Positions 299 to 40,736 of a stretch of DNA of 43,295 nt are shown here, piece after piece. Each line of letters opens with the position of its first letter. The first letter of the stretch is position 1. The position numbers and the translations under genes were made by a program. Source of the stretch: a virus; IMG/VR virus record IMGVR_UViG_3300013136_000015, positions 1-43,295 of that record; one strand, given 5' to 3'. Below the pieces are notes generated by a model. The model worked only from the letters and a program-made list of their open reading frames with translations. It was not told where the DNA came from and did no database searches.

Positions 299-946
299 TC
301 AAGCATAGTTGCGAATCAGCAGCTCATTGACACGCTTGCGTGCTTCAACTTTACGCGCCAGTGAGTACCGCGTCGTGACCTGCTCGATCTCCGCCCATTT
401 GTAGAGTTTCCTGATTTCAGCATGATCATTATAGCTCAGAAGGAACTTCCCTTTCAAGTGTTTCAGCGTCGCTGCAAGACGTTCATGCGCCCTCTCTATA
501 ATGTCCTTAATGTAGTCGCTCAGAATCGGTGCTCTATCGCTCAGTCGATAGCCGAAGCTCGGCTTGACCGTTCTGTCTCCGAAAGCCTGTCTGAGCAGCC
601 AGAAGAACCTGGCAGCCCGCTGCACCTCAGTAAGTATGACAGGCTGGAACGCCTGTCCCACAAGCCCTTGCTTGTCTCTCCTGAAATCTTCCTGGCTCGC
701 CAGCCTGAACCGCAGCTTTTCGAGCAGTTCAAGCGGCTTTTCTCGCACACATCGGAAGAAGTTCGTCAGATCGCCATGCCTGTCATTCAGGACCTCTGCC
801 TTGGACACGCTCGCCTCTTTACCGAACAGCACCCATGCAGCGCCGCAGAAGACCTCGATATACGTCGTATGCTCAGGAAACAGCTTCAGGATTTTCGGCC
901 TCAGCAGCCTCTTTCCGCCGACCCATCCGATTGGACTCTGTAACAT
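299..946 (-). CDS. D12-class adenine-N6 DNA methyltransferase-like protein lacking the DPPY motif
   Basis: The 215-residue protein begins like phage Dam-type methylases: WVGGKRLLRPKI (residues 8-19), the AdoMet-binding motif region EVFCGAAWVLFGKE (31-44) and VLND (52-55). The C-terminal part KGKFLLSYNDHAEIRKLY (165-182) is also typical. In the family, 45-60 residues including the catalytic DPPY motif separate the AHERLA-type segment from KGKFLLS. Here the two are joined directly near residues 152-162, so the catalytic motif is gone and activity is doubtful. Residues about 94-105 (GLVGQAFQPVIL) come from an in-frame B repeat at 637-663. A strong Shine-Dalgarno AAGGAGG (953-959) lies 6 nt before the ATG. 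The start overlaps the end of the com-like gene by 46 nt, as com and mom overlap in Mu. Confidence 0.75.
   Translation of the reverse strand: MLQSPIGWVGGKRLLRPKILKLFPEHTTYIEVFCGAAWVLFGKEASVSKAEVLNDRHGDLTNFFRCVREKPLELLEKLRFRLASQEDFRRDKQGLVGQAFQPVILTEVQRAARFFWLLRQAFGDRTVKPSFGYRLSDRAPILSDYIKDIIERAHERLAATLKHLKGKFLLSYNDHAEIRKLYKWAEIEQVTTRYSLARKVEARKRVNELLIRNYA
637..663. repeat. B-family palindrome inside the methylase gene
   Basis: GACAGGC (638-644) and GCCTGTC (651-657) form the stem. The unit matches the intergenic B copies at 6031 and 30315. It is in frame and encodes VGQAFQPVI. Confidence 0.8.
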
Positions 947-1101
947 GATTCGCCTCCTTGCGTCGATGACGCTCGAAGGCGTTCAGGATTGATCTCAAGC
1001 CGATTTATAGTCTTGCATCGGCCGCACTTACATTCAGCCGAAATGCTTATCGAAGCTTCAAACAGCTTCTTACCGCAAGTCTTGCATCTAACTTCGCCCA
1101 T
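901..1101 (-). CDS. com: Com-like zinc-finger translational regulator
   Basis: The 66-residue protein has the layout of phage Mu Com, a small zinc-finger protein that binds mRNA and activates translation of the overlapping DNA-modification gene. It starts MGEVRCKTCGKKLFEA, with C6-x2-C9 and C26-x2-C29 (plus C24) as likely zinc ligands; Mu Com has a similar RCKNCNKLLF start. The ATG at 1101 is preceded by AAGGA seven bases upstream. The frame stays open further upstream to 1257, so an N-terminal extension is possible. The last 46 nt overlap the methylase start, which implies translational coupling. Role by homology; zinc binding is inferred. Confidence 0.75.
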   Translation of the reverse strand: MGEVRCKTCGKKLFEASISISAECKCGRCKTINRLEINPERLRASSTQGGESCYRVQSDGSAERGC

Positions 1102-1257
1102 CACAATGTCCTTGTGATACAATGTCCTCATGTCGCGCGCTCTCAGAGCCGCTTTACGGTCAGTGCGCGATATTTGAGGAGTCTGCATCTTGCAGGGCCG
1201 AAGTGTTTTTTCGGTCGGTTTTGGCTGCATCAACAGCCTAAACTGCTCCTCAATCAA

Positions 1258-1371
1258 TCACCGGCTACGAAGACAATCCGCAGATTCCGGGCGCATGCCA
1301 TGCGCCCCTACCAATCGGCTGTTTCATCTGCGTCATCTGCGGTTGGTTCCCTTCTCTCCCATGCTACATCC
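1258..1371. repeat. E and D repeat island upstream of the com-like gene
   Basis: An E half-site near 1278-1290, a D half (GGGCGCATGCCATGCGCCCC, about 1289-1308) and an E right arm (1323-1343, ATCTGCGTCATCTGCGG) fill the gap between two genes. I see no gene here. Confidence 0.7.
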
Positions 1372-1560
1372 TCAGTCGCTTCCACCCTGTTTCTCGATCT
1401 CCAGCGCCACGGCCTGGCGATACAGCTCCAGCTCTGCGATCAGCCGTGACGAGCCTGACAACCCCAGCATCGAGACTTGCTGCTCCATAGCTGCAATATT
1501 CACGAGCATACTGAGTAGATTGGATGGCACTTTTTCATAGTCTATAATCGGCCGCGGCAT
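1372..1560 (-). CDS. Small hypothetical protein (62 aa) after the tail-fibre gene
   Basis: The ATG at 1560 has GAAAGGGG just upstream and begins 14 nt after the tail-fibre stop codon. The protein (MPRPIIDYEKVPSNLL...) is short, soluble and helix-prone, with EQQVSMLGLSGSSRLIAELE in the middle. Its position after the fibre gene would suit a small fibre-associated or chaperone protein, but I recognise no family. The longer reading that begins further upstream overlaps the fibre gene in another frame and is not credible. Confidence 0.6.
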   Translation of the reverse strand: MPRPIIDYEKVPSNLLSMLVNIAAMEQQVSMLGLSGSSRLIAELELYRQAVALEIEKQGGSD

Positions 1561-1574
1561 TGTGTTTCCCCTTT

Positions 1575-4562
1575 CTATCCCGACGCGACACGCTGCACGT
1601 ATATGCTGGCGTTGATGTATTGCATATATGCATTGCACGTTGTGACGGCTGGGTTCCCGGTTGCCGTGCAGTGCGGCGTGAATTGGTATGAAAATGTCCC
1701 ATAGATATTCCCTTGGCTCAATGAGGCAGGCGCAACGGCCAGATCTCGCCATGCACTCAACGTCTGCTGATTCTGGCCGACATAGTAATAGGCGATGCAA
1801 TATCCAGGCGCGCCGATATCTGAAAGGCATGTCCCGACTATGTTTCCGTTGTAGATCAGCTCGCCGTGCAGCCTGTATACGCTCCCGCCCACCGATGTGA
1901 ACACCAAGCTCGTGCCTCTCCCATAGATCAATCCAGGAATGACCAGTTCCGTGTAGTCCGCTGTTACCTGAGCGGTCCACGTTCGGGTTGGCTCATTGTA
2001 TCGGCTACAGACATTATGGTCATAGGCCATGGAATTCAAGGATGTGAAGCATAGCGAGCCTACAAGGACCTTGTCCGGCGAAAGCAGGTTCAGCTTCGAA
2101 TAGTTAGTGTCTGGCGCCTGTGTTGACAAAAAAAATGTGTCGTATCCAATATAGACATAATAGAACGTCCCCACAGACCCGGAAACCTGCAACGTGATCC
2201 CCTCTTGCGGAATCAGCCGCATCGAGAGATCCGGAAATACGATCGTGCATGGATCGGTAAGCGGCACGAGCTTGATGGTGTTGCTGTTCACCCGTTCCAG
2301 TCGCACTAGGATGCCCGCGGTTTTTTGCTGCTCATAAAGCATGTTCGCGGAAAGCGATGTCTGAATCTTCGCGCTGCTCCAGGTATCGTTGAATGTCGTC
2401 GCGGAATCGTCAATCTTGAGCTGCGAGAGCGGCGCAATTTCTTTGATGAAGTTTCCCGAAAAGTGGCTCTGCGCTGTGGGCCGGATGCGAGCCAGCCATC
2501 TCGCATTGTTTCCCGGCCAGTTGCCCGACAGATATCCATTCACGGGCGCCGTGAGGCAGCAAAAGAGCGCGCCTGCGAAATCACCCCAGAATGACCTATT
2601 GTTCGCCAGATACAGATAGAGGTCTTGGTCGGGATAATCTTCGATCGCATTTAGCGGCTGTAGAGGCGCATCAGGGCTATTTTCGTCATATTCCTGGACA
2701 ATATCCGTAGTCGCGCAAACGTGGACCCTGGCGTCGTCCTGATCATACGTCTGCACGGTCAAACCGGCCACATTGACCAGACCGTCCGTGCCCGTCCGCT
2801 TGGCAACCTTGAACGAGAAATCATCCACATTGACAAATCGGATGTCAGCCAACCCTGAATAATAACTTGGGCTGATCACGGGTTGCCTGATTGCTGTCAC
2901 GTCCGCGCTGGGTCGGAACATGCCCGCGCTGTCGGTCATGATTTGCCCGATATGCCGCGTCACATAGCCCGGCCACTGTTCATCGAGCCTGCCATGATCC
3001 GGCGCCTTCGGGCTCAGGAACGGCTTTAGGCGCATATCCAGCGAAGCGTCGTAATTGCCTTCCGCGGCGATGTCCTTCGAGGTCCACGGCCGATTCGTCG
3101 CGGGATTTACCGCATTGAAATTGAACTCATCCACATCGCCGGAAATGTAGATATAATGCTGCATATTTGGCGAAAGCGCGCCCGTCTCGCGTTGGATCTT
3201 GCCCGGCGCCTCGTCGTTCCATGAGACCCACGGATCGTTGGTCGTGATGTCATACTCCACGCCCAGATAGTGCAGGTTACCCGCGACGTAGATCTGCCCA
3301 TAAGCCCCGTCGAGCAGCGCGAACCGCAAAGTGTCGCCGTCCACGAACTGGACCTGGTAATCGCTGAAATCCCTCAATGTCTCCGGGAAATTCGTGGTCC
3401 TGGATATCAAGGAAATGTCCACTTCACGGAGAAAGAACGGACCGCCTTGCTCTGTGGGCGTGTCATCAGTCTCGACCTTGCCCACAAGCCTCGCATTGCG
3501 GCCAGGGCCGATTGTTGACAGGTAGCCATCAGTCTCGGGAGTGGTGGAGAGAAAGAGCCTGCCTCTAAAATCCCATGAGCCCCCCTCACCCTGACCCTCT
3601 CCCGGAGGGAGAGGGAAATGGACGCTGAAGGCGGCATCCCTGGAATTGGCCACGTAGATCCAATATTCCGTTTCAGGCTGCAAAATCACCGGCAAGATGC
3701 CGGCGCTACCAATTTCAAGGGTCGGCTGTTTGTTGGTCACCGCTGCGCTGCGCTCCGCTTTCACGAATTCGCCATTGACCCAGATCAGCCCCGAACCGCC
3801 CGGAATGGCTTCGAGGCTGATTTCGGTCGGGCTGATCCAGACCACACGCGCGTCCGGACTGACCATCTGCAAAAAACCAGGCGGCAAATGCCGTTCAGGC
3901 TCATCATCCTCCAGCCTGGAATGCTTCTCGCGTAGCCATTGGTAGCCATTCCAGAACAGCAGGACATTTGTTTCCACGACCGCGTGCAGCTCGCCCATCG
4001 AGCGGCCTGGATTGGGCAGGTCTGATTTGTTGTCCACGTTCCAATAGCGATGCAGCGGTTTGAATTCCTCCACCGAGGAATCCCAATAATAGAGCCTCCA
4101 GTAATATTGATTCGCGGTCGCGTCATAGAACCGGACGTTCCAAATCTCACCAAAGGGCCTCGGGCCAGTGGGCAGTTCCGAATAGGTGAGCGCAGCCCCG
4201 GCAATTCCAATCCCGATCCACTGCGTCCCGTCCCACCAGTAATCATGCTCCCATCTGCGGAACCGGCGAACATGCCCGTAGACATTCCCTTCGGGGCTCA
4301 CGCGATACAATTCATCCCCGTAATTGCCGTCGCAAAAATAGGGCATGGAGGCCGTGGCCGCAGTGTTTGACGGCGGCCAATCCCCCCCCTCACCCTGGCC
4401 CTCTCCCGCGAGGGGCGAGGGAATAGCGGGCAGATCGTCAGGCGAATCCAGCGGCGGCTGCTGAGGCTGCACATAGAGCATGAGGTTGAACCGCTGCGCA
4501 AGCTGCTCCAGACCGTCGCCGTCAAGCGAAATATCGACCGCAGGCCAGAATTTAGACGACAT
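1575..4562 (-). CDS. Large tail-fibre / receptor-binding protein (995 aa)
   Basis: The protein contains about four tandem copies of a fibre-type unit. Each copy has a sentence like YYIYV or LYLYLANN, followed by an LSTTAP-like or LTAPVNGYL segment and a stretch such as WPGNNARWLARI or GPGRNARLVGKV. Such units are common in trimeric phage fibres. The start is placed at MSSKFWPAVDIS (4562), because the 12 codons before it are translated C-repeat sequence; GAGGGAAGG lies upstream. Three repeats are embedded in frame: C at about 4383-4415 (SPLAGEGQGEGG), A at about 3684-3713 (GSAGILPVI) and C at about 3584-3613 (PLPPGEGQGEGG). It follows the collar-type fibre gene and probably acts in adsorption. 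Confidence 0.75.
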   Translation of the reverse strand: MSSKFWPAVDISLDGDGLEQLAQRFNLMLYVQPQQPPLDSPDDLPAIPSPLAGEGQGEGGDWPPSNTAATASMPYFCDGNYGDELYRVSPEGNVYGHVRRFRRWEHDYWWDGTQWIGIGIAGAALTYSELPTGPRPFGEIWNVRFYDATANQYYWRLYYWDSSVEEFKPLHRYWNVDNKSDLPNPGRSMGELHAVVETNVLLFWNGYQWLREKHSRLEDDEPERHLPPGFLQMVSPDARVVWISPTEISLEAIPGGSGLIWVNGEFVKAERSAAVTNKQPTLEIGSAGILPVILQPETEYWIYVANSRDAAFSVHFPLPPGEGQGEGGSWDFRGRLFLSTTPETDGYLSTIGPGRNARLVGKVETDDTPTEQGGPFFLREVDISLISRTTNFPETLRDFSDYQVQFVDGDTLRFALLDGAYGQIYVAGNLHYLGVEYDITTNDPWVSWNDEAPGKIQRETGALSPNMQHYIYISGDVDEFNFNAVNPATNRPWTSKDIAAEGNYDASLDMRLKPFLSPKAPDHGRLDEQWPGYVTRHIGQIMTDSAGMFRPSADVTAIRQPVISPSYYSGLADIRFVNVDDFSFKVAKRTGTDGLVNVAGLTVQTYDQDDARVHVCATTDIVQEYDENSPDAPLQPLNAIEDYPDQDLYLYLANNRSFWGDFAGALFCCLTAPVNGYLSGNWPGNNARWLARIRPTAQSHFSGNFIKEIAPLSQLKIDDSATTFNDTWSSAKIQTSLSANMLYEQQKTAGILVRLERVNSNTIKLVPLTDPCTIVFPDLSMRLIPQEGITLQVSGSVGTFYYVYIGYDTFFLSTQAPDTNYSKLNLLSPDKVLVGSLCFTSLNSMAYDHNVCSRYNEPTRTWTAQVTADYTELVIPGLIYGRGTSLVFTSVGGSVYRLHGELIYNGNIVGTCLSDIGAPGYCIAYYYVGQNQQTLSAWRDLAVAPASLSQGNIYGTFSYQFTPHCTATGNPAVTTCNAYMQYINASIYVQRVASG
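3584..3613. repeat. C-family palindrome inside the tail-fibre gene
   Basis: CCCTCACCCTGACCCTCTCC followed by a GGAGGGAGAGGG arm, read in frame as PLPPGEGQGEGG. Confidence 0.8.
3684..3713. repeat. A-family palindrome inside the tail-fibre gene
   Basis: CACCGGCAAGATGCCGGCG followed by CTACCAAT; identical in core to the intergenic A copy at 6433. It is read in frame as IGSAGILPVI. Confidence 0.8.
4383..4415. repeat. C-family palindrome inside the tail-fibre gene (N-terminal part)
   Basis: CCCCCTCACCCTGGCCCTCT and CGCGAGGGGCGAGGG arms, read in frame as IPSPLAGEGQGEGG. Confidence 0.8.
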
Positions 4563-4569
4563 GCGGAAA

Positions 4570-4777
4570 ATACCTTCCCTCACCCCGCCCTCTCCCAAAG
4601 GGCGAGGGTGAAAGATGTAACCCCTCTCCCAAGGGGAGAGGGTGAAAGATGTAATCCCTCTCTCCCCAGGGAGAGAGAACCGAGTTTGCCCTCTCCCTCT
4701 GGGAGAGGGTTGGGTGAGGGTCTCCCTGCTCTTCCTCTTTCCCCTCGCCCCCCGGGAGAGGGATGGGGTGAGGGCAG
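4570..4777. repeat. Tandem cluster of about five C-family palindromes
   Basis: The gap between the two fibre genes consists almost wholly of CCCTCTCCC...GGGAGAGGG units (about 4575-4608, 4620-4642, 4652-4680, 4688-4718 and 4740-4775) with slightly different sequences. No gene is visible. The minus-strand end of the first unit provides the GAGGGAAGG before the large fibre gene. Confidence 0.85.
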
Positions 4778-6019
4778 CTACGTCTTGATAATCTTCAGCA
4801 CAACCGCCGCAGGATGATAGTTATTATGCGCCTCCCCGCCGCCCTGCGCGGAGATTGTATGCGAGTGAGTGCCCGTCACATTCGGAGCGTTGCTGCCCGC
4901 AGACGGCGTATAAGCGCCGGTCGCTGAAGGGGTGCTTGTGCCGGTGCTGCCGCCGTGATTGTGGCTCGGCATCTGATCCACCGTCAGAGTGACCGTCTCA
5001 GCGCCTCCGGTATTTCCCACTGCATTGCCAAGTTGAGCCGTGCCGGTCCCGCCTGAACCGACCGCGCTCCGGCGGCGAAGGTCCGGCAGATTGAACGTTG
5101 TTGAGCCGTCGCCTATACCCCATGTCGTCCCTATGGCTGTGAACAGAGCTGCATAGGTCTCACGGCTCACTGCGGAACCATCGCACGCGAGCCAGCCGTC
5201 GGGTGCTGAATCGCCGCCGTAATCCATTATCATGCCCGCGGGCAGGGTTGACCCTCCCGGCACATCCACCGCCTTCAACACCGTTCCATCGATCTTGCAG
5301 TATTTCCCATCCTCAAGATTGCCGATGGTTCTCGCTCCATCGGTCCCAGTCAACGCCACGACGGTAGGAGAGGCCGCATTGCCGCCTAATTGCCCCGCGA
5401 GTTGAACCCTGCCTTTGACCTCGGCGGTAGCGTCCGGCACAGGAGCTACCCCCACCACTGTGGTCCCGGAGCGTCCCAACAATTCACCGTCGTCTATGGC
5501 GCCCATTGATAGCGATTGCCCACCAGATTCCTTCACCCCGACCACAAGAGGCTCGTCCGCTGTGCCGCTAAAATTGCCCGCCAACTTGAGCTTACCTTTG
5601 ACGTCGGCGGTGGCATCCGGCGTCGCGGTCGCGGGATACGGCCATTCCGTCCAGTTGCCCAGGATACTGGGATCGTCGCCAGTCAGGACATAGGCCTTGG
5701 TGACATCGGACCTCAACGCCATGTCCCGCTTCTGAGCCGTCAGGGCCAGCATTTCAACCTCAGAAGCCACGCTGAAGGTATCCCCGAGCGCTGCGGGCGG
5801 GAGTTTATTCATAGGGACCTGAACGTTCTGGTCCAATAGCAACGGCCCGCCGGCTTGGTCCGCGGAACCAACAAAATCCTCGAGCGCATCGGCTCGACCG
5901 CCCAGCGCGTCGGTCTCCTCAGCGATCGCGGCAAGATTATCATTGACCTTGTCCCACGCGGCAGGATTCAGGTCCGGGTTCTGAGGGTCAAGACTGATTG
6001 GATCGGGAGTATATGGCAT
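4778..6019 (-). CDS. Tail-fibre protein with tail collar domain (413 aa)
   Basis: The middle carries two copies of a fibre repeat, TPDATADVKGKLKLAG (about residues 133-148) and VPDATAEVKGRVQLAG (about 194-209). These resemble the KGxVxLA repeats of P2-type fibres. The C-terminal part is a clear phage tail collar domain: GDSAPDGWLACDGSAVSR followed by FNLPDLRRRSAVG, then a Gly/Ser-rich tip with HSHTISAQGGG ending in VLKIIKT. Collar domains usually mark receptor-binding fibres of contractile-tailed phages. The N-terminus (MPYTPDPISLDPQNPDLNP) probably attaches to the baseplate. The ATG is 37 nt downstream of a B repeat; AGGGATA is a weak ribosome-binding site. Confidence 0.88.
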   Translation of the reverse strand: MPYTPDPISLDPQNPDLNPAAWDKVNDNLAAIAEETDALGGRADALEDFVGSADQAGGPLLLDQNVQVPMNKLPPAALGDTFSVASEVEMLALTAQKRDMALRSDVTKAYVLTGDDPSILGNWTEWPYPATATPDATADVKGKLKLAGNFSGTADEPLVVGVKESGGQSLSMGAIDDGELLGRSGTTVVGVAPVPDATAEVKGRVQLAGQLGGNAASPTVVALTGTDGARTIGNLEDGKYCKIDGTVLKAVDVPGGSTLPAGMIMDYGGDSAPDGWLACDGSAVSRETYAALFTAIGTTWGIGDGSTTFNLPDLRRRSAVGSGGTGTAQLGNAVGNTGGAETVTLTVDQMPSHNHGGSTGTSTPSATGAYTPSAGSNAPNVTGTHSHTISAQGGGEAHNNYHPAAVVLKIIKT

Positions 6020-6030
6020 GATTCTGTATC

Positions 6031-6058
6031 CCTGTGGGACAGGCTTTCCAGCCTGTCA
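6031..6058. repeat. B-family palindrome
   Basis: GTGGGACAGGCTTTCCAGCC followed by TGTC, lying between the small coiled-coil gene and the collar-fibre gene. Confidence 0.8.
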
Positions 6059-6271: not shown

Positions 6272-6278
6272 TTTTGCC

Positions 6279-16284: not shown

Positions 16285-17385
16285 TCAAACCAACACTGCC
16301 CCGCCGTTGTCGCCGCCTCCGGTATCCCCACTGCCTCCTGAATCTCCACTGCCCGATCCCCCACCGGCAGGATCGGGCGATTCCGGGGCCGTAGCCCCGG
16401 TATCTTGCCCGTCATCACCGTTGAATTCCGAGAAGGCATTTTTCACGCCTCTTGCCAGTCCCTCGATGCAGGTCTCCACATCGGCTCGTTTGCTCGCCTT
16501 GAGGAGCATGTGCGTGCTGGTCACCCAGCCTTTTTCTCCGGCAAGGACCAACTGCACCGGACCGGAGGAGATGAACGTGTTTTTCTTCTCCGCATCGAAC
16601 AGTATTGACGGGCCGATCTTCCCATTCTCCGTGGCCGCGAATATGGCCAGGATGCCTTTGCCATCGCCTGCGTAATGCCAGATGCCCCCGCCGTTCGCAT
16701 CCATCAGGCCCATGTAGTAATGGCCGTCCTTGGTGGCGTCCTTGACGCTTTCGGATGTGCCCGTCGCGACCATTTTGGTCCCTCGGCGCTTCCCTTTCCG
16801 CGGCTTCGATTCCTCTCCCTCGCTCTCCTGCTCATCCTCATCCTTGCCCGGCCCGGACATGAACAGGCCCGCTCCCAGGCTATCAATGAGCGCGAGCTTT
16901 TCCCTCTGCCCCCGATCGTCGAACAAAAGGGTATGGCCCGCCTCAGACTTCAGGATGCGCAGCCGGGTAGCGTCCCGCGGATTGTTCTTGCCCGCGGTTT
17001 TCACTTCCAGCGGCGTGAGCTGCTTGTTCCGGTCTTTCCCCGTCTTCTGCCCCTGTTGATATGGCGGCCCGGGTATGGCGAAGAGGGCCTGCGGATGGCC
17101 GGACAGGAATCCCAGATAAACAGTCTGTTGCGGCTGCAGCGGCAGCCACGCGCCCTGATCGCCCTTGGATTCGTCGCCGCCGCCGATGGGCGCGCCAATG
17201 ACCTGGACCCATCCTGTCCAGTTCTTTTTGCCCTTGCCGAGCAAGTCCGGGCATTCGCACCTGACGCGGCCAACGCCCCACGGGTCCTTGACATCCTTGA
17301 CCGTAGCGTCGTGGAAGGACAGGAACTGATTCATAAGAAACGGCGTCGGGACATATGGCGGTTCCCAATCGCGAGCGAAGAACAT
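16285..17385 (-). CDS. gpV/gp5-like baseplate spike protein (366 aa)
   Basis: The N-terminal region (about residues 22-115) is an OB-fold of the phage spike type: FHDATVKDVKDPWGVGRVRC, then WVQVIGAP and WLPLQPQQTVYLGFLSGHPQ. A middle beta-rich part has GHTLLFDDRGQREKLALID, as in gpV and Afp8-type spikes. Residues about 325-345 (DGQDTGATAPE) are an in-frame degenerate A repeat, and the protein ends in a Gly/Ser/Asp-rich tail. The gene starts two nt after the hub gene stop, with GGAGG upstream. In the particle it would form the membrane-piercing tip under the hub. Confidence 0.82.
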   Translation of the reverse strand: MFFARDWEPPYVPTPFLMNQFLSFHDATVKDVKDPWGVGRVRCECPDLLGKGKKNWTGWVQVIGAPIGGGDESKGDQGAWLPLQPQQTVYLGFLSGHPQALFAIPGPPYQQGQKTGKDRNKQLTPLEVKTAGKNNPRDATRLRILKSEAGHTLLFDDRGQREKLALIDSLGAGLFMSGPGKDEDEQESEGEESKPRKGKRRGTKMVATGTSESVKDATKDGHYYMGLMDANGGGIWHYAGDGKGILAIFAATENGKIGPSILFDAEKKNTFISSGPVQLVLAGEKGWVTSTHMLLKASKRADVETCIEGLARGVKNAFSEFNGDDGQDTGATAPESPDPAGGGSGSGDSGGSGDTGGGDNGGAVLV

Positions 17386-25465: not shown

Positions 25466-25825
25466 TTATTCACCTCCTGCATATTCCCGGCGTTCAATCC
25501 AGCCGAGCTTTTCCCAGGCAAAAATCTGTTTCGTGAGCAGCTTTTTCAAAATCGGCCCGCTGACATGAATGTCCCGGCCTGCGCATCGCGGCCCCAGATT
25601 GATATGAGTCCCATCGCGCAGCGGGCACGCAAGCGGCTGTTTGGATTTGTTCACCAGGATGCAATAGTCGGTTCGTAGCGCCGGCGCCTTGCCGGTATCT
25701 GCGGCCGGCTTTTCCCCCTCACCCTGGCTCTCTCCCGCCAGGGGAGAGGGGGGGCTTTTCTCTTCCATAGCGCCGGCATCTTGCCGGTACTCTTCTTCTT
25801 CTTTGGCCTTATTTCTTGTGGCCAT
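25466..25825 (-). CDS. Small protein in the Mu gp38 position (119 aa), half repeat-derived
   Basis: The gene lies between the tail-terminator-like and sheath genes, where Mu has gp38. The ATG at 25825 is preceded by AAGGAGG at six bases. About 45 of the first 60 residues are translations of three palindromic repeats: EYRQDAGAMEE (A, 25767-25790), PPSPLAGESQGEGE (C, about 25719-25752) and DTGKAPALRT (A, 25674-25701). The remaining C-terminal 65 residues (YCILVNKSKQPLACPLRDGT ... LLTKQIFAWEKLGWIERREY) look like the original protein. Function unknown. Confidence 0.65.
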   Translation of the reverse strand: MATRNKAKEEEEYRQDAGAMEEKSPPSPLAGESQGEGEKPAADTGKAPALRTDYCILVNKSKQPLACPLRDGTHINLGPRCAGRDIHVSGPILKKLLTKQIFAWEKLGWIERREYAGGE

Positions 25826-26038
25826 GAGGCCCTCCTTATTTTCCCTCACCCCAACCCTCTCCCAGAGGGCGAGGGGGTTTTGATCGTTATTGCTGCCGGG
25901 GTGCGGAAGTCATTTTCAAATTGAAAATGACTTCCGCATGCTTGCTCAGCGCCCCAGGGCCGAATCACCGGCAAATACACAAAAGTCTTTGGGAGGGGGC
26001 CGCGGGGGAAGACCTTTCTACAGAAAGGGCTCCCCCGC
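25826..26038. repeat. C - G - A(partial) - F repeat island
   Basis: C at 25842-25872. G hairpin at 25902-25938 (arms of up to 18 bp) with tail TGCTTGCTCAGCGCCC. A truncated A half (25963-25974). F at about 25981-26037 with stem CCTTTCTACAGAAAGG. No gene is visible. Confidence 0.8.
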
Positions 26039-26644
26039 TTACACTCCTATCTGCAAATCGAACTCTCTTATGCCGAGCGCCTGGAATGCAGCCTGGCGTT
26101 CAACCCACACGTTCGAGACTCGATACCGGACCGCAGTCCGGTAGAACGGCTTTTCAAGCTCATCCAGGTCCTCCGGGCTGCCTGTGCTGATCATCAGCGG
26201 AGCTCCGAATTTGTTGCCGTCGATCTGCAACCGAAACGGCACCGGAAATGCTTCGAGAAGCATCAGGAACAGCGCGGTGTCCTGATCGTCCGCCACGCTG
26301 TAGCAGTCCACCTGGTAGAAGAGCTCCAGGGGGATCGGCCACCATTTCCATTCCCAGGACGCCGGGCCAATGAACTCCCCGCCGCCGAATTCAGTCTCGG
26401 GAATGGTCACCGTGACCTGCTCGTCAGACGGCGTGAAATACTCGAGATGGTTCCGGCAGGCATCCAAATCGATTCGAGCTTTCATGTATCGAGACAGACT
26501 GATGCACGGCGGAATCATCTCGCCTTTCTCACGATCCGGGCCAAGGCCGTGAATGGGCATCGGCTGAACTACCGGCGGGACGCCGGCGCTACATTTGATT
26601 CGGCCGAGCCGGTCCAGAATATATGCATCAACCAGTTTGATCAT
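26039..26644 (-). CDS. Tail terminator-like protein (201 aa)
   Basis: Position before the gp38-like and sheath genes matches Mu gp37 (tail terminator). The protein has a helical start and a beta-rich body: DSEQ-like acidic segment EYFTPSDEQVTVTIPETEFG, then PVPFRLQIDGNKFGAPLMIS and FYRTAVRYRVSNVWVERQAA. Residues 17-27 (KCSAGVPPVVQ) come from an in-frame A repeat at 26569-26594. AGAGGAATC precedes the ATG. Tail terminators cap the tube and join it to the head. Family assignment rests mainly on position. Confidence 0.6.
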   Translation of the reverse strand: MIKLVDAYILDRLGRIKCSAGVPPVVQPMPIHGLGPDREKGEMIPPCISLSRYMKARIDLDACRNHLEYFTPSDEQVTVTIPETEFGGGEFIGPASWEWKWWPIPLELFYQVDCYSVADDQDTALFLMLLEAFPVPFRLQIDGNKFGAPLMISTGSPEDLDELEKPFYRTAVRYRVSNVWVERQAAFQALGIREFDLQIGV

Positions 26645-28417: not shown

Positions 28418-28545
28418 TACCGGCAAGATGCCAGCGCTACGAATACAATCCCGATCCGCAGATTTCACAGATTTGCTGTAGGGGCGCATGGCGTGCGCCC
28501 CAGGGCGACCACCGGTCGCCCCTACATAATCGGCGTAATCTGCGG
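28418..28545. repeat. A and E-D-E nested repeats
   Basis: A at 28418-28443. E left arm (28454-28473) and E right arm (28531-28545) flank a D pair (28479-28525). Confidence 0.8.
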
Positions 28546-29091
28546 TTATTTCTTCCTCTTTTCATGTTCCCGCTGCCATTCCGCGACAGCGATCTGCACC
28601 GCGATATTGTGCTCGCTGGTGCGGCTCTTGACATTGAGGCCCAGCCTCTTGGCCCTGGCGCGGAGCTGCGCCACGGTATTCTCCTGTTTGAGCGTCTCGA
28701 CCCGGCGCTCGATCACAATGTCTCGGGCCGCGGCCAATGCTTCGGGCGTGGTGGGCAGAGATGCCGCAGCGCCGGCGTCTTGCCGGTCTTCTTGCATCTC
28801 TGCCTCATGCGCCACGGCGCCCGGGTCCGCAGACTCCGCTGGCGCTGCCGGACTTACGTCCGGGTCCTTCTCGCTCCCTCTCCCCTCGCGGGAGAGGGAC
28901 GGGGTGAGGGACGCATCCGCGGGCGGATCGGCGTAGATCAGGCTGCGAGTGTCCAGCCGCTGAGCCGTCAGGCTCCCGGCCGGCACGACTTCCGGAAGCT
29001 GCTTTATCTCTCCCGGTCGAATGTGGAACCCCAGTTCCCGGTCATAATGCTGGCCGTGCTCCGACGCCAGCTTTACCCATTTCCGTTCCAT
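28546..29091 (-). CDS. Hypothetical head-associated protein (181 aa) with two in-frame repeats
   Basis: The gene follows the major capsid gene, the Mu gp35 position. Residues 1-55 form a compact beta-type N-terminal domain (YDRELGFHIRPGEIKQLPEV). Residues about 60-75 (ASLTPSLSREGRGSE) are a C repeat (28880-28912) and about 101-110 (EDRQDAGAAAS) an A repeat (28764-28790). The last 50 residues (VAQLRARAKRLGLNVKSRTS ... AVAEWQREHEKRKK) resemble a SAP/Rho-N-type helical motif. The central region is acidic and probably disordered. Function unknown. Confidence 0.65.
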   Translation of the reverse strand: MERKWVKLASEHGQHYDRELGFHIRPGEIKQLPEVVPAGSLTAQRLDTRSLIYADPPADASLTPSLSREGRGSEKDPDVSPAAPAESADPGAVAHEAEMQEDRQDAGAAASLPTTPEALAAARDIVIERRVETLKQENTVAQLRARAKRLGLNVKSRTSEHNIAVQIAVAEWQREHEKRKK

Positions 29092-31501: not shown

Positions 31502-32083
31502 TTATTTGCCGCCCTTTTGCCATGCGGCCACAGACGCCGCGGCCCGCTTTTGCTCGGGGTTCAATGGCGTTTCCGATCCGGTGGCCGGATCTTCAGCCAG
31601 CGAGGTGCGCCGGCTTTGAGGCCGGCCGAAACGAGCGTCGGCCTGTGCCCCATATTCCGCGCAATACGCCTTGAGCTGGCCTATGTCCGTGCAATTGCCG
31701 ATCACCGCCCTGATCTGCTTGGCCTCATCGGACAGATCGGGCCGGCTCGGATCGACCTTCGCGGAATCAAACGCCTTCAGAGCAGCCTGCTTGAGGTCCT
31801 CGATATACTGTTCGCCGGCCGTGGCCAGCTCCAGACGCGCCGGAATGCGCTCCACAATCTGGGCCAAAGCAACGGCCGATTCCCCCTCCGTTCTCAGGGC
31901 CTTTTCCATAGCCTGCAATTTGGCCGCCAGAGCATTGTAAGCGTCTCTGATGCCGGTGAGCCCGTTGAGCTTTTCCAGGGTCCGCTCCACGAGCCCGTCT
32001 GTCACCGTGCCTTTCTCATCGAAAACGTATTCGATCCCCAGGACGCCGAGGACCGCTGCGCAGAGCGCTATCAGCTTCTCCAT
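31502..32083 (-). CDS. Nested scaffold protein from internal start (193 aa)
   Basis: Within the protease gene, the ATG at 32083 (codon 297, MEKLIALCAAVLGVLGIEYV) is preceded by a perfect AGGAGG (32091-32096) at seven bases. The site is stronger than chance coding sequence would need. The product would be the helical C-terminal region alone, ending NPEQKRAAASVAAWQKGGK. Mu gpZ and lambda Nu3 are made in exactly this way from the end of their protease genes. Expression is not proven. Confidence 0.65.
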   Translation of the reverse strand: MEKLIALCAAVLGVLGIEYVFDEKGTVTDGLVERTLEKLNGLTGIRDAYNALAAKLQAMEKALRTEGESAVALAQIVERIPARLELATAGEQYIEDLKQAALKAFDSAKVDPSRPDLSDEAKQIRAVIGNCTDIGQLKAYCAEYGAQADARFGRPQSRRTSLAEDPATGSETPLNPEQKRAAASVAAWQKGGK

Positions 32084-32971
32084 GATCGTGCCTCCTCCTG
32101 TCTCCCCGTGATTGAAATCCTGTGCGGCCCCCGCCGCATTTGTTATTTTGTTTTGCGCATCCCGCGGCCCGGCATTCGCATCCGCTCCGGCCCAGACCAT
32201 CCCCAGATGCAACACGCCTTCGGCAGCGAGGTCCACGGGCCGCCAGCAAACAATCTCGCCGTCCACTTCGCGGCCCTGCATTTCAACGAACGTTCCGAAA
32301 TCCATATCCGGATGGCTCATTTCAAAATCAGGGTCCCATGCCACGGACATGGCATTAATTTCGCCGCCCTCAAGACCAAGGCATGCCTTGGGATCATAGG
32401 CCCTCCGGATCACAGCCACCGCATTACAGCCGGCTTCTATGCCTGTCGGTTCCTCCCATGCTCCATTTTCCAGCCGGCCCGCCTTGTCCTTAATCGAAAA
32501 CGAATGGTCCCACACGAACCCCACGGGCCGCGATGTCTGCCGCTGCGTTATAAAGCCCGGCATTTTGCGCAGGGCATAGGCGTCGTTGTATCCGTTATCG
32601 ACCAACTGCGGCCCGAGCCATCCCATGCAAGACCAGGTCGGAGCGGCGCTCAGCACGCGCACGAGCATACGGAGTTCGTCAGCATTGCCGCCGGACCCGC
32701 CTTCCGGCGCCTCGCCAGGCCCTTCCGCGGGCGGCGCATCATCCGGCAGGCCATTGGCCTGGCTGTTTACCGTAGCGCCGGCGCCTGCCCCGGACCTTGA
32801 TCCGGGGTCCTGCCGGTGATCGTTGCCCTCGACCGGTTCGCGGAACACGGCCCCGATATCATGTGACGGGTGACAGTCGGCTATGCATCGAATGCCCGCA
32901 TTTGACATCCGGTAGCGTTTCCGGCCGTTAACCACCGTGAACGGCGGTTCTTTGATCTGGTCCTTCTTCAT
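31502..32971 (-). CDS. Prohead protease fused to scaffold (489 aa)
   Basis: Position before the decoration and capsid genes, and the arrangement of a protease-like N-terminal part with a helical C-terminal part, match the Mu gpI and lambda C/Nu3 type. GFVWDHSFSI contains a candidate catalytic His (H156) and EINAMSVAWDPDF a candidate nucleophile Ser (S209), a pattern seen in S78-type proteases; this is inference. Residues 51-69 (DHRQDPGSRS then GAGAGATVN) are an in-frame composite A repeat (32768-32821), followed by a Pro/Gly-rich linker. Residues 297-489 are helical scaffold, probably also made alone from an internal start. GGAGGCAAC precedes the ATG. Confidence 0.72.
   Translation of the reverse strand: MKKDQIKEPPFTVVNGRKRYRMSNAGIRCIADCHPSHDIGAVFREPVEGNDHRQDPGSRSGAGAGATVNSQANGLPDDAPPAEGPGEAPEGGSGGNADELRMLVRVLSAAPTWSCMGWLGPQLVDNGYNDAYALRKMPGFITQRQTSRPVGFVWDHSFSIKDKAGRLENGAWEEPTGIEAGCNAVAVIRRAYDPKACLGLEGGEINAMSVAWDPDFEMSHPDMDFGTFVEMQGREVDGEIVCWRPVDLAAEGVLHLGMVWAGADANAGPRDAQNKITNAAGAAQDFNHGETGGGTIMEKLIALCAAVLGVLGIEYVFDEKGTVTDGLVERTLEKLNGLTGIRDAYNALAAKLQAMEKALRTEGESAVALAQIVERIPARLELATAGEQYIEDLKQAALKAFDSAKVDPSRPDLSDEAKQIRAVIGNCTDIGQLKAYCAEYGAQADARFGRPQSRRTSLAEDPATGSETPLNPEQKRAAASVAAWQKGGK
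32768..32821. repeat. Composite A repeat with inner palindrome, inside the protease gene
   Basis: A outer arms CGTAGCGCCGGC and GCCGGTGATC surround CCCCGGACCTTGATCCGGGG (32787-32806). The same composite occurs at 22050-22099. Confidence 0.8.
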
Positions 32972-32974
32972 GTT

Positions 32975-35563: not shown

Positions 35564-37227
35564 CACATTTCCCCCCATCCCACATATTTGGGGAGCACAG
35601 TGGTTGACGGGCCTCTAATTCCCAGTTCCAGGGCTGCAATGCGACCGCTATTCATAGCCATGCCAAAATGGTTGTCCACATGATCCAGATAGGTCCGCCG
35701 CATATTTCCGCTAGGGTCTTCAGTGGTCTCGGTTATGAGCATCTTCAGGTGGGCATCCACATCCTCGCGGATTGCTTTCTCAGCGGGGCTCAATCGCTCC
35801 ATTGCAGGCAAATACATTTCGACATTGACGAGCATATCCACGGTGGCATCAAGGCTTTCTGTCCGGTCCACCTTCACGTTCTGAATGGGGACCTTGTTCT
35901 CGAATAATTCGGAGCCTACGGTCAGCTCCTTGACCGGCGAAAAATATTGAATCCAAACCCTATCTCGAAAATTCACGGCAAATTCTTTGGCCGACCGTTT
36001 ATAGGGCATGGCGTCGATCACGCAACCCGCAATGCCGTATTTCCGCATTAATTCAGGCAACCGGCCCCATTTGTCGGTTATTTCAAACCAGACCCAATCC
36101 AGATCGCTCCCAACGCGGCGATTGATGGCAATGTGCAGCAGGTCGCCAACATCCACGCCCATGAAATGCCCATAGCCGCTCTGGCAAATGAACCCGTGTT
36201 CGATCTCGCACCTGCGCAGCACATCATCCGTGATCTTGGCATCGTCGCCGCCATAAGGGTCGCCTATGATGCTGATCGTGAAGCGCTTCAATTCCAGCCG
36301 GCGTTTCAGAGCCGCCTGATACTGGCGCATTATGAATGTGGCATAATTGGGGGCCTTCTTTTTCGGCGGCTCAATCTGAGTATAGAGCTGCGAAATATGA
36401 TAGCCCCGCACGTCGCGGCCGGGCCGGTGGGCCTCCCATCGGCCCTTCTTCATATCGAGCTCGGCGCCGCAGTTGAGGCAGCCGCGGTAATGGGTTGCGC
36501 CGTCAGGATAGGATTTGAGGCGATTCTGCGGAATTTCCATGAAGTTCGCTGGAAATTCCTTTTCCAGGCAATTCTCATGGCCGCACGCCGGGCAGATCAG
36601 GTGCCAGTAATGCTGGTCGCTGGGCACGAACATTTTGTTAATGCCGTACCCCGGAAAGCTCGGCTGTGACAGCGCATGATCCCATTGCAGCGTGCTCGCC
36701 ATAATGCGATCTTTGACGAACTCGGAATGGTCCTGCTTGGACCGATCGACTTCATCACGGATTACATAGTCGCCCGGCGCGGTGATGACATTGGCCTCCG
36801 AAAACATGCCCATAACCTGAATGGAGCCGTCGCCTAAATCCATGTGCTCCCAGGAATAGGTCTCGCCGATATGGGCCTTGATTTCAGGGCTGCGATTGAT
36901 CAGCCGCTGGATGCGCTTCTTGCTAAACGTGCGCGCTTTTTTATCATTGTCCAGGTAATAGAGGGAGGTCAGTCCCAAATGGTCCGCCACGTAAATTGCG
37001 CGGATAGCCATGATTTCCGAAGCGCCGATCTGAGCTGCCTTCTGAAGCACCTGGACCGGATGGTCATCCTCCATGATCTGCTGCTGAAACTCGAACCCCT
37101 CATATGAATACGGCCCGCCGCCCACGACAATGCCCGCGGTCCGCACATATTCACCGGGATTCAGGCGCCGTCCCCGCGTGGCCCTCATGGCTGCGGTTTT
37201 CGGCAATATTTCAGCAACTACGCTCAT
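35563..37227 (-). CDS. Terminase large subunit, lambda gpA family (554 aa)
   Basis: The packaging ATPase/nuclease. The N-terminal ATPase has a deviant P-loop LQKAAQIGASE (K63, S70), equivalent to KSARVGYSK of lambda gpA. It also has an acidic Walker-B-like segment YVIRDEVDR (D158, E159). A zinc-binding insert CPACGHENC (C212, C215, C220) with CLNCG (C250, C253) is characteristic of the family. The nuclease region has GVDVGD (D359, D362) and CVIDAMP (D405). Total length is a little shorter than lambda gpA (641). It begins at TAATG overlapping the small-terminase stop and ends overlapping the portal start. Confidence 0.9.
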   Translation of the reverse strand: MSVVAEILPKTAAMRATRGRRLNPGEYVRTAGIVVGGGPYSYEGFEFQQQIMEDDHPVQVLQKAAQIGASEIMAIRAIYVADHLGLTSLYYLDNDKKARTFSKKRIQRLINRSPEIKAHIGETYSWEHMDLGDGSIQVMGMFSEANVITAPGDYVIRDEVDRSKQDHSEFVKDRIMASTLQWDHALSQPSFPGYGINKMFVPSDQHYWHLICPACGHENCLEKEFPANFMEIPQNRLKSYPDGATHYRGCLNCGAELDMKKGRWEAHRPGRDVRGYHISQLYTQIEPPKKKAPNYATFIMRQYQAALKRRLELKRFTISIIGDPYGGDDAKITDDVLRRCEIEHGFICQSGYGHFMGVDVGDLLHIAINRRVGSDLDWVWFEITDKWGRLPELMRKYGIAGCVIDAMPYKRSAKEFAVNFRDRVWIQYFSPVKELTVGSELFENKVPIQNVKVDRTESLDATVDMLVNVEMYLPAMERLSPAEKAIREDVDAHLKMLITETTEDPSGNMRRTYLDHVDNHFGMAMNSGRIAALELGIRGPSTTVLPKYVGWGEM

Positions 37228-37844
37228 TACACCTTTTCCAGCATCCGCTCTTCAGCAGCGGCGATCTTGTTATAGAGCTTCGTGATCAATTCCGGGTCCC
37301 CTTCAAGGTCCTTCCGGACTTCGTCTTTCAAATCCTTTACGGCATCCCGCACCTGCTGGCCCTTTTTCTGCTCCCATTGTTCGCGGGTTTGCGTGGAGCG
37401 GCCGAGGCGCTGATGCGCGAGAATGAGTCGGCAGAAATCCTCGATGCCTTGCGCCTGCATTGGGGCCGCGTTATAGAGCGTTTCCATCAGGGTCGCTTCC
37501 ATCAATTGCTGGCGGCCTTCTTCAATCGTAGTATCCGCGGGAATCAGCGCCAGAATGGTCCTGGCCCGCATCAGAGCATCATCAATGCGATGGATGTCGT
37601 CGCCGAGCTCCACCCGGTGTTTAAAAATTTGATTGCGGCTGATCTTATGGCCGAGCTTTGCCAGTTCTTCCGAGATCTGCTCATACGTGAGGGAATTCGG
37701 CCCAGGCATGAGCCATTCCCGAATCTGGAGCCGAATTTCTTCGGGCAATTTGTTGATGGCCGAATGCCGCCTGTTCGGCCGCCGGATAGGATGATCCGCA
37801 GATTTCAAAGATGGGACCTTCTCCACAGATTTCGCAGATTTCAC
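37227..37844 (-). CDS. Terminase small subunit, Mu gp27-like (DUF3486-type; 205 aa)
   Basis: The core RRHSAINKLPEEIRLQIREW (about 25-44) followed by LTYEQISEELAKLGHKISRN is the helix-turn-helix opening of Mu-type small terminases. The rest is helical, ending EERMLEKV. It recognises viral DNA and feeds it to the large subunit. The start is uncertain. I choose GTG at 37844 because AAAGGAACC lies just before it; the frame is open further upstream but has no ATG. The first 20 residues (VKSAKSVEKVPSLKSADHP) are translated E repeat, so the original start was probably replaced by the repeat. Confidence 0.8.
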   Translation of the reverse strand: MKSAKSVEKVPSLKSADHPIRRPNRRHSAINKLPEEIRLQIREWLMPGPNSLTYEQISEELAKLGHKISRNQIFKHRVELGDDIHRIDDALMRARTILALIPADTTIEEGRQQLMEATLMETLYNAAPMQAQGIEDFCRLILAHQRLGRSTQTREQWEQKKGQQVRDAVKDLKDEVRKDLEGDPELITKLYNKIAAAEERMLEKV

Positions 37845-37885
37845 AGGTTCCTTTCTGCGTAGTCCGCATAATCTGCGGTTAGATT
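37795..37885. repeat. E-family repeat overlapping the small-terminase start
   Basis: Left arm ATCCGCAGATTT (37795-37806) plus further CAGATT units (37826-37843), and right arm CATAATCTGCGG (37868-37879). Confidence 0.75.
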
Positions 37886-37902
37886 CTTTTGGCTGTGAGG
37901 AC

Positions 37903-38208
37903 CTAGCAGACAATCTCGACCCCCGGATCGGGACCAATCACGCCATCGAGCAGATCAATCCCCTGCGGAGTTATCCATACCAGCCAGCGTTCCACGAGGG
38001 ACTCACGATCCTTCAGCAGCTCCTTGCGGAGATATTCTTTCTCCGCAAGGTAACGGACGTCCTCCTCCAATTGCTCGAAACTCCCCAAGCGGCCGGCTCG
38101 TTGGAATATGCGCTGCAATCCCTCAAGGGAGAGCCCCTGGCCGCCATAGACCCGGACCTTTCTGAGAATTTCGCCTCTCCGCCGCAGCTTGGCGTCCACT
38201 CCGGTCAT
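37903..38208 (-). CDS. Winged-helix phage protein in the Mu gp26 position (VpaChn25_0724-like; 101 aa)
   Basis: A small winged-helix protein with GQGLSLEGLQRIFQRAGRLG and EQLEEDVRYLAEKEYLRKEL as the helical part, and the wing followed by WLVWITPQGIDLLDGVIGPD, which matches a family often found before the small terminase in Mu-like phages. The starting TAATG overlaps the preceding stop. It may regulate late genes or take part in packaging; the exact role is not known. Confidence 0.75.
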   Translation of the reverse strand: MTGVDAKLRRRGEILRKVRVYGGQGLSLEGLQRIFQRAGRLGSFEQLEEDVRYLAEKEYLRKELLKDRESLVERWLVWITPQGIDLLDGVIGPDPGVEIVC

Positions 38209-39166: not shown

Positions 39167-39182
39167 ATCAATCCTCCATCTC

Positions 39183-39302
39183 ATCCGCAGATTGCGCAGA
39201 TGGCTATAGGGGCGACCGGCGGTCGCCCAGAAGAAGGGCGCATGCCGTTCGCCCCTACATTGTTCCGAGAATCTGCGTCATCCGCGAAATCTGTGGTTGC
39301 CT
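39183..39302. repeat. E-D-E nested repeat
   Basis: E left arm (39184-39202) and E right arm (39266-39299) flank a D pair (about 39207-39258) with an extra AGAAGA insert between the halves. Confidence 0.8.
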
Positions 39303-39953
39303 CTAGTATGGAGGCCGTATGGCTAGCACGATACGCGGCTGCCAATACGGCCTGAGATTCGTTTCCGAGAAGCCCTTGGTTTTGCCCGCATGGACCGCGC
39401 GGCCCTTTTGGACGTATTGCATCAGCACATGGTTGATGAAGAAATCCGCCTTGGCTGGCCGCATTTGTAGGGGCGAGGCACGCCTCGCCCTTCCCGTGGG
39501 CGACGCATGCGTCGCCCCTACACCCGCATCCGGATAATCCTCGGAATTTGCGAACAGCAGATCTCCGAACATGGCCTCATCCAGCCTCATAAGCGGCGGC
39601 CACGGCCATCCGGCCATTGCCTCCGCGGTCGTGCGATGGAACCATTTTGTCAGGGTGAGTTCGGGCCACAAATCCTTGAGCAGCTTCCACATCTGCATGG
39701 AGCAATCCGCTTTGCCCCAGACATATGGCGGATTCTCGGCAAGCATCACCTGGACGTTGGTATAGAGCACCGCGCGCCGGCCGGTGTAGGCATGGGAGGA
39801 TGATCCGCAGATTGCGCAGAAGATGCAGAGAAGAAGAACAGCCTTCACCACAGAGATCGCAGAGGGTGCTGTAGGGGCGCATGGCATGCGCCCAGGGCGA
39901 CCGCCGGTCACCCCTACGAGAACCTGTGTTCTCCGCGGTGAACCGTTCCCCAT
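39303..39953 (-). CDS. NlpC/P60-like cell-wall hydrolase with repeat-derived segments (216 aa)
   Basis: The catalytic part has NPPYVWGKADCSMQMWKLL, with the nucleophile Cys in ADCS, then MFGDLLFAN, and a C-terminal FINHVLMQYVQKGRAVHAG that carries the His, so this is an NlpC/P60-type peptidase (probable endolysin). Between GDLLFAN and FINH about 22 residues (AGVGATHASPTGRARRASPL) come from an in-frame D repeat (39468-39525). The first 55 residues are also repeat-derived (D: about 39868-39918; E: 39807-39835), including a hydrophobic stretch VLLLCIFCAICGSS that could mimic a signal peptide. The ATG at 39953 has GAGGGGATAG upstream. A later GTG start near VLYTNVQVMLAENPP is possible. Confidence 0.7.
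   Translation of the reverse strand: MGNGSPRRTQVLVGVTGGRPGRMPCAPTAPSAISVVKAVLLLCIFCAICGSSSHAYTGRRAVLYTNVQVMLAENPPYVWGKADCSMQMWKLLKDLWPELTLTKWFHRTTAEAMAGWPWPPLMRLDEAMFGDLLFANSEDYPDAGVGATHASPTGRARRASPLQMRPAKADFFINHVLMQYVQKGRAVHAGKTKGFSETNLRPYWQPRIVLAIRPPY
39468..39525. repeat. D repeat inside the hydrolase gene
   Basis: Halves TAGGGGCGAGGCACGCCTCG and GGGCGACGCATGCGTCGCCC make two adjacent hairpins bounded by GTAGGGGCG and CGCCCCTAC, read through in frame. Confidence 0.85.
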
Positions 39954-39956
39954 ATT

Positions 39957-40736
39957 CTATCCCCTCACCGCGGCTGTGATTATCCAGCCCAGGACGAGCA
40001 ATTTCATACAAACAATGCAGGTCGACGCCCAGGTGTTGTCATAAAGGTCCTTGTCCCACCAGAAATTGAAAATCCTGCGCATGATGACCAGGCCGAGAAT
40101 AAATGCGCACATCGCGATAAGGACCGTTACGCCCACGCCCGCGCCTTTGACCGCGGCCACCACCAGCGGCGTAGCGCCGCCGATCCTTAGTATCTGCTCC
40201 AACTGTTCATATTCGACCGGAGTCAACAGCACGCTCGGGTAGTTGTCGTCATTGTCCGGTCCCGTGGCCTCTTCATCATCCTCTTGGCCCCCTCGCCCCA
40301 TGGGAGAGGGACGGGGTGAGAGCGCATCGTTCGTAGCGCCGGTGTCCCGCCGGTAATTCATTGCAGGGGCCTTCGGGAATGCAGGCCATTCGAGGCCTTT
40401 CGCTGACCACAAAGCGTGTCCCTCTCCCCTGTGGGGCAGGCTTTCCAGCCTGCCGACGGCCTGGAAAGGCCATCCCACAGAGAGGGGCGGGGTGAGGGGG
40501 TCCTGTCGATAATTGTTCTTGGCCGGGGAGGTTAGAGTCGGATTCGGGAACAGGTCCCGCGCGGCCTTGTCAATGCCGCTTTGCATGGGCGCATTCGAGG
40601 AAGATTCGCCGGCTGCCCTGCAGGGCGCTGATAGGCCGAATGCTGTTAGGCTGACTACCACGGACAGGAAAATCGCAATGCTGCGGCGTGAGCTGCGGAT
40701 ACGTAGCGCCGGCGTCTCGCCGGTAGTTTGCGCCAT
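39957..40736 (-). CDS. Secreted/membrane protein with four in-frame repeats (259 aa)
   Basis: A signal-peptide-like segment (SRRSIAIFLSVVVSLTAFGL, about residues 16-35) is followed by a long low-complexity region. The C-terminal part has two membrane segments (VAAVKGAGVGVTVLIAMCAF ... LGLVIMRRI and CIVCMKLLVLGWIITAAV). Repeats embedded in frame: A at 40701-40726, encoding TTGETPALRI before the signal segment; C with a nested B at 40420-40500 (PLSVGWPFQAVGRLESLPHR); A at 40332-40357 (NYRRDTGAT); and C at about 40288-40321 (LSPRPSPMGRGG). Only the ends look ancestral. CGGGAGGG before the ATG at 40736 supports that start. Possibly a lysis-region protein. Confidence 0.65.
   Translation of the reverse strand: MAQTTGETPALRIRSSRRSIAIFLSVVVSLTAFGLSAPCRAAGESSSNAPMQSGIDKAARDLFPNPTLTSPAKNNYRQDPLTPPLSVGWPFQAVGRLESLPHRGEGHALWSAKGLEWPAFPKAPAMNYRRDTGATNDALSPRPSPMGRGGQEDDEEATGPDNDDNYPSVLLTPVEYEQLEQILRIGGATPLVVAAVKGAGVGVTVLIAMCAFILGLVIMRRIFNFWWDKDLYDNTWASTCIVCMKLLVLGWIITAAVRG
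40420..40500. repeat. B repeat pair nested in a C repeat, inside a gene
   Basis: The C arms CCCTCTCCCC (40420-40429) and GAGAGGGGCGGGGTGAGGGG (40480-40499) are split by a B pair (40429-40480). This shows that B was inserted after C. Confidence 0.85.

Follow-up and report, generated by a model that had tools for sequence, protein, structure and literature searches.

Palindromic REP-like elements between and within the genes of a Mu-like transposable phage

The stretch of DNA considered here, referred to as the window, is the IMG/VR virus record IMGVR_UViG_3300013136_000015 (positions 1 to 43,295), and it carries many short palindromic repeats of several families, which crowd into the gaps between genes and also occur, with the reading frame kept open, inside genes for virion and other phage proteins. 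Two other records, G003 (3300013125_000852) and G001 (3300013125_000682), jointly cover the window with no indels, at identities of 100% and 99.97%; every sequence is a metagenome assembly, and the records may not be independent samples. Extension to the right by 18.5 kb adds an N6/N4 methylase, GemA, a Gam-like gene, a MuB-like ATPase, MuA and an S24-type repressor (coordinates above 43295 are phage coordinates that continue the window numbering along G001). Extension to the left, on G003, enters flanking DNA with a gene that is, judging from its sequence, presumably cysteine-synthase-like. The window and G003 have a common sequence from window base 84 onward and different flanks before that base. 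Because of this gene content and the switch of flank at the phage end, the whole element is a Mu-like transposable phage of about 61.6 kb, and the window is its late part. The two different flanks at one and the same end (n=2 only) suggest recent mobility of the repeat-loaded phage.

Repeat families and their placement

A fuzzy census of the 61.8-kb sequence gave 33 copies of family A, 28 of B, 21 of C, 19 each of D and E, 21 of F, 9 of G and 2 of H, compared with 0-0.2 per family in Markov-shuffled sequence and 0 in reversed sequence. A profile census of the seven main families counted 156 copies in the phage and 94 in the window, and again 0 in reversed sequence. Two further families were found additionally, namely I (GTAGGGGCGACGCATGCGTCGCCC) and J (CCCCGGACCTTGATCCGGGG), the latter with copies at 22065 and at phage coordinate 43772 besides one in the prohead protease gene. 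Single units are 17-37 nt long.

An unpaired GTAG precedes a short hairpin in most A, C and D copies and in I, and GTGG takes this position in E. By direct reading of the consensus, the stems are 5 bp in A (where two bases follow the tag), 7 bp in C and 8 bp in both D and E, with loops of 3-5 nt; these values fall within the range of GTAG-tagged repetitive extragenic palindromes (REPs), which have stems of 5-13 bp and loops of 2-20 nt. Among A, C, D and E, head-head orientation is seen in 25 of 36 close pairs, 16 of which combine C with D, and the arms of B often enclose such a C-D head-head dimer. Families B, F, G, H and J also consist of palindromes or inverted repeats, but the GTAG tag is missing from both their consensus and their copies. 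The consensus sequences of A, C and D are free of stop codons in five of the six frames and that of E in all six. Overall, the density of tagged hairpins in this phage is 11.6 per 10 kb. Features that illustrate the untagged and composite elements are the following.

15072-15108 and 25902-25938: the two copies of family H, a 37-nt near-perfect palindrome (TGCGGAAGTCATTTTC...GAAAATGACTTCCGCA)
28456..28545: intergenic composite of B, C, D and B, with B arms around a head-head C-D dimer (about 90 nt, nested)

The copies are distributed very unevenly. About 82% of the phage is coding by the gene list used, in which gene starts are uncertain, and 55 of the 156 copies lie wholly within genes where 128 would be expected (p about 1e-37). 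In the window, the corresponding figures are 24 of 94 copies and 78 expected, and the density is 9.65 copies per kb outside genes and 0.67 inside, a difference of roughly 14-fold. This strong intergenic excess was absent from the original prediction, which was concerned with palindromes inserted in frame into about eleven genes.

The 24 intragenic copies of the window are distributed over ten genes, encoding the methylase, spike, baseplate V-like protein, gp38-position protein, tail terminator (gp37-position), gp35-position protein, portal-MuF, small terminase, NlpC/P60 hydrolase and a membrane protein; the prohead protease gene, with a nested copy beyond the 24 scored, is the eleventh. The individual sites are listed with the strand of the copy, where assigned, and with the encoded peptide, where read.

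638..661, minus strand: E copy (VGQAFQPV) in the D12 methylase gene (299-946), about 3 aa longer than the G005 homologue
3583..3615, plus strand: perfect F copy (PLPPGEGQGEG) in the spike gene (1575-4598)
3688..3709, minus strand: perfect A copy (GSAGILPV) in the spike gene
4387..4418, plus strand: F copy near the N-terminus of the spike open reading frame (ORF), ahead of the starts of most homologues
16391..16412, plus strand: baseplate V-like gene (16285-17385), with a decayed A copy in a C-terminal tail that close homologues do not have
25675..25788, plus strand: A, F and A in the linker of the gp38-position gene (25466-25849), read as TGKAPALR, PSPLAGESQGEG and YRQDAGAM
26571..26592, minus strand: perfect A copy (CSAGVPPV) in the tail-terminator gene (26039-26644)
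28766..28910: gp35-position gene (28546-29091), its linker occupied by A and F copies, read as DRQDAGAA and SLTPSLSREGRG
32772..32817, plus strand: A copy in the protease gene (31502-32971), with a 24-nt J palindrome (32784-32807) nested in the A loop
34097..34190: A, C and F in the linker between the portal and MuF domains (gene 33089-35578), extra residues relative to G002 and G015
37796..37840, plus strand: small terminase ORF (37227-37937), with two B copies in its N-terminal extension, where translation is uncertain
39467..39521: head-head dimer of family I in the NlpC/P60 hydrolase gene (39303-39953), read as VGATHASPTGRARRASPLQ and absent from the G015 homologue
39805..39917: B, C and D copies at the N-terminus of the hydrolase ORF, possibly untranslated
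40290..40478: F, A and an E head-head pair in the membrane-protein gene (39957-40736), with weak homology only, on the C-terminal side
40703..40724, plus strand: A copy (TGETPALR) at the N-terminus of the membrane-protein gene

The original prediction of in-frame copies in about eleven genes is partly confirmed; the tail fibre, which had been named among them, has to be struck from the list, as neither the tail-collar fibre (4778-6019) nor the 1631-aa tail protein contained a copy in the repeat scans. All five peptides that had been attributed to family A were found, that is, YRQDAGA and TGKAPAL in the gp38-position protein, SAGILPV in the spike, TGETPAL in the membrane protein and IPAGRRR in portal-MuF. 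The same palindrome is indeed read in different frames, with intragenic A and F copies occurring in five strand/phase combinations each and E copies in four. The load is not confined to one phage cassette, as had been supposed, and spans the whole phage; early genes also bear copies, including MuA, GemA, the N6/N4 methylase and several genes of unknown function. None of the PDB matches of the N6/N4 methylase spanned its inserted F, and the alignment of MuA with that of Pseudoalteromonas phage HS6 is too distant for the insert to be placed exactly.

In-frame insertion itself is supported for many genes, in part by near-empty sites in relatives, but it is doubtful in some N-terminal cases, which may reflect mis-called starts, and the baseplate V-like copy is decayed. 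The B copies of the small terminase, the C, D and B copies near the hydrolase N-terminus and the first spike F are located ahead of the first conserved residue and may be untranslated.

Empty and occupied sites in related phages

Relatives were gathered by searches with the terminase and baseplate W proteins; a terminase search of genome_contigs returned no relative. The comparison of affected proteins with homologues, a check proposed with the original prediction, revealed extra segments in several of them. The portal-MuF linker has gained roughly 25-30 residues, the tail terminator is about 6 aa longer at what a structure model predicts to be a beta-hairpin turn, the hydrolase has gained one dimer-encoded segment, and the baseplate V-like protein has gained its tail. 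In the protease, the A copy is perfect once the 24 nt of family J are left out. The D12 methylase keeps both domain ends and is missing the middle part with DPPY, which we take to be the motif of this methylase family.

The same check gave another result for the spike, in which native sequence is substituted. The domain with the perfect A and F copies (3324-3926) has 201 residues and is of the same length in G005 and G015 at about 53% identity. Because this length equals that of repeat-free homologues, the repeats apparently stand in place of native sequence, and the case would represent either insertion plus deletion or true replacement. In a structure model of moderate confidence, the A segment is predicted to form a turn and a strand and the F segment a poorly predicted loop; this model and that of the tail terminator were made only for locating the inserts.

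G005 and G015, with 84-90% DNA identity across their main alignment blocks (about 87%), differ by 13 indels of at least 12 nt. In the gp35-position gene, an 87-nt in-frame segment containing two REPs tail to tail is present in G005 and absent from G015. The two phages also differ by a 51-nt in-frame palindrome in the gp38-position gene, by a B-type palindrome of 92 nt that lies towards the end of a further ORF, and by REP-bearing or B-type segments between genes. Furthermore, the gp35-position genes of G002, G005 and G006 contain VGADPSVCP or VGADPGVCP, encoded by yet another REP.

The portal-MuF linker is found in three conditions. It is bare in G002 and G015, it is occupied in frame by F, C and A in the window, and in L020 it has its own REP (GTAGGGGCGGGTTTGAAACCCGCCC family) plus an F. 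This L020 REP (L020:4677-4701, ATGGGCGGGTTTGA) supplies both the TGA that ends the portal and the ATG that starts MuF, in a gene that is fused in other relatives, which shows that short repeats are able to reshape gene boundaries.

The repeats themselves differ by lineage. Family A occurs in none of the twelve relatives tested and not in G002. Tagged hairpins reach about 6 per 10 kb in G006 and G004 and are near or below the shuffled level in most other relatives; hairpins are few or absent in distant relatives that share the late gene order, and closer relatives have other families. No phage or plasmid record matched the C-D composite, and within the virus contigs both this composite and the family-A core are confined to records of the present phage. 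Family E is also present in several other virus contigs, between genes or mostly close to ORF starts; in L075, L082 and L083, five E copies with 32-nt spacing lie at the start of a 297-aa ORF.

Linkers shared among relatives hold different palindromes, and the pair of phages about 87% identical provides clean with/without comparisons inside genes. The phages of this clade could thus be used as a natural archive of REP insertion, showing the frequency with which the frame is kept and whether the encoded peptides are merely tolerated, a matter not yet settled either for REPs or for Rickettsia palindromes.

Likely origin of the repeats

The tagged families exhibit considerable similarities to the GTAG-tagged REPs defined by Di Nocera et al. 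(2013; PMC3733652), whose carriers include the PVC superphylum and for which head-head dimers, several families in one bacterial genome, a GTGG tag variant in Opitutus terrae and intragenic copies, most of GTAG type in O. terrae, have been reported. The unpaired GTAG or GTGG tag, the stem of 5-13 bp with a short loop, the multi-copy state, the predominance of head-head dimers, the mostly intergenic and partly intragenic location and the presence of several families per genome are all shared. There are also differences. The carrier here is a phage, in which the copies of all families together reach about 25 per 10 kb and affect many genes, for virion proteins as well as early ones; C-D heterodimers lie inside B arms, and a search of the genome collection gave no match for the family-A core. 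Inverted REP pairs were linked to REP-associated tyrosine transposases (RAYTs) by Bertels and Rainey (2011; PMC3116915). As in those REPINs, the unit here may be an inverted REP pair with a mover expected in trans; the 87-nt segment of G005 contains two REPs tail to tail, and single units occur too. Unlike in REPINs, no RAYT was found on the phage, and the dimers are often composed of two different families.

The original prediction had pointed instead to Rickettsia palindromic elements, which invade proteins (reviewed in PMC2229807). This likeness extends to behaviour only, in that palindromes are fused in frame in conserved proteins and tolerated in several genes, whereas the units are 17-37 nt rather than 105-146 bp, differ in sequence, have a GTAG tag and reside in a phage; the closest kind is the GTAG-tagged REP superfamily. 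Invasion by several families at once had also been thought not to be well described. Intragenic REPs and several families per genome have in fact been published for bacteria, but a genome-wide load in a phage is absent from the papers searched, and our searches of open-licence papers found no account of REP or RAYT elements lying within genes of phages. Elements of this kind are known, and their load across many genes of a phage, with paired empty sites, appears to be new among those papers.

Overall, we consider it likely that families A, C, D, E and I belong, as new members, to the GTAG-tagged REP (REPIN-like) superfamily, that B, F, G, H and J represent palindromic elements of other kinds, and that trans-acting transposition from the host loads the prophage while selection leaves copies in gaps, linkers and loops. 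The repeats would be miniature non-autonomous elements, with the host as their source, that copy in trans into the Mu-like prophage during lysogeny; the mover of the GTAG families would probably be a host RAYT-type tyrosine transposase, as none was found on the phage. Insertion would strike the phage widely, and selection would purge copies that break genes. The survivors would be those located between genes, or in linkers, tails and surface loops with a net length that is a multiple of three, and their peptides would mostly be tolerated passengers. The affected proteins would go on working, though perhaps not every gene is functional, given the frameshifted Gam-like gene of G001 and the D12 methylase without its DPPY segment.

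Several lines of evidence support this explanation. The GTAG/GTGG hairpins and head-head pairs match published REP features, and the window has an intergenic excess (24 copies in genes and 78 expected). G005 and G015 provide in-frame presence and absence, and the portal-MuF linker is bare, loaded or split. J is nested exactly in an A loop, and both the hairpin load and the families differ by lineage. Finally, Y1_Tnp had no match on the three phage records, and different flanks adjoin the same phage end.

Other results weigh against it. The host and its RAYT genes were not found, and the search of genomes for repeat cores, proposed with the original prediction, gave 0 matches for the 24-nt family-A core in genome_contigs. 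Families A to G (seven scanned) are absent from the 1.5 kb of host flank, which is too short to decide. Since B, F, G, H and J have no GTAG tag, a RAYT mover is not assignable to them, and target-site footprints did not resolve. In addition, the spike A and F copies give no net length change relative to homologues, where plain insertion predicts one.

A tentative possibility, of rather low probability, is that the elements spread partly by length-neutral replacement and that REP segments are now working parts of the virion (the spike strand, the portal-MuF linkers), with host repeats remodelling phage proteins and gene boundaries, as in fused versus split portal-MuF. A related view would hold that the elements are adapted to entering proteins, or that their peptides were recruited as useful virion linkers or loops, a strategy like that of Rickettsia palindromes. 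Different palindromes do strike the same linkers repeatedly (in portal-MuF and the gp35- and gp38-position genes), the spike A peptide is modelled as an ordered turn and strand, and the GTAG families are open in five of six frames, or in all six for E. However, flexible linkers are expected to gather tolerated insertions anyway, the many frames in use mean that no single peptide is conserved, and copies in the window are 14 times denser outside genes. We therefore regard adaptation or recruitment as unlikely.

Those late genes for which homologues exist have their full length and an intact frame, copies are strongly depleted within genes, and practically identical phage sequence lies beside different flanks. 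These observations make simple decay, in which a prophage accumulates repeats under relaxed selection, quite unlikely, even though the Gam frameshift on G001 and the loss of the DPPY segment from the D12 methylase could be taken as its signs. It is very improbable that the repeats are useful to the phage itself as terminators, mRNA-end hairpins or DNA-structure sites: the hairpin-forming copies do lie mostly between genes, but they are few or absent in distant relatives whose late gene order is the same, closer ones carry different families, conserved hairpin positions are not seen across relatives, and a fixed function would leave the intragenic copies unexplained. An assembly or sequencing artefact, to which repeats in data drawn only from metagenome assemblies are prone, is scarcely credible and was rejected, as the whole window recurs, at 99.97-100% identity and free of indels, in two other records whose break points differ, and the genes stay in frame, with frames open through the repeats.

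Phage ends and neighbouring genes

The end of the phage that lies in the window is the following.

84..150: phage end adjoining the methylase gene, in which GCACAGAACCGGAC occurs twice; the flank outside the phage occupies bases 1-83

The other end, seen on G001, reads ...CTGTGGACTA at phage coordinate 61726, which is the inverse of the TAGTCC end, and is followed by other DNA.

Compared with other Mu-like phages, namely HS6 (by MuA) and the Pseudomonas aeruginosa saltoviruses (PMC5977238), this phage has the same set of MuA, MuB-like ATPase, GemA and S24-type repressor, as well as Mu-like head genes and varying flanks at the phage end. It differs in its size of about 61.6 kb, in its load of repeats and in its MuA, which is only about 31% identical to that of the best sequenced phage among the matches listed; a MuA search of virus contigs found no relative beyond this phage. 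Hotspots beside REP-like motifs have been described for the transposable phages of P. aeruginosa (PMC5977238), and this association is a conceivable point of contact with the phage described here.

The Gam-like gene on G001 ends early, with its C-terminal part in another frame and no repeat there (L011:6881-7243). The region from the repressor to the phage end includes two ankyrin-repeat-like genes (L011:18377-19658). It should also be mentioned that both 3300013125 records break at one spot, 29866-29874, in the major head protein gene, perhaps owing to variation at that site.

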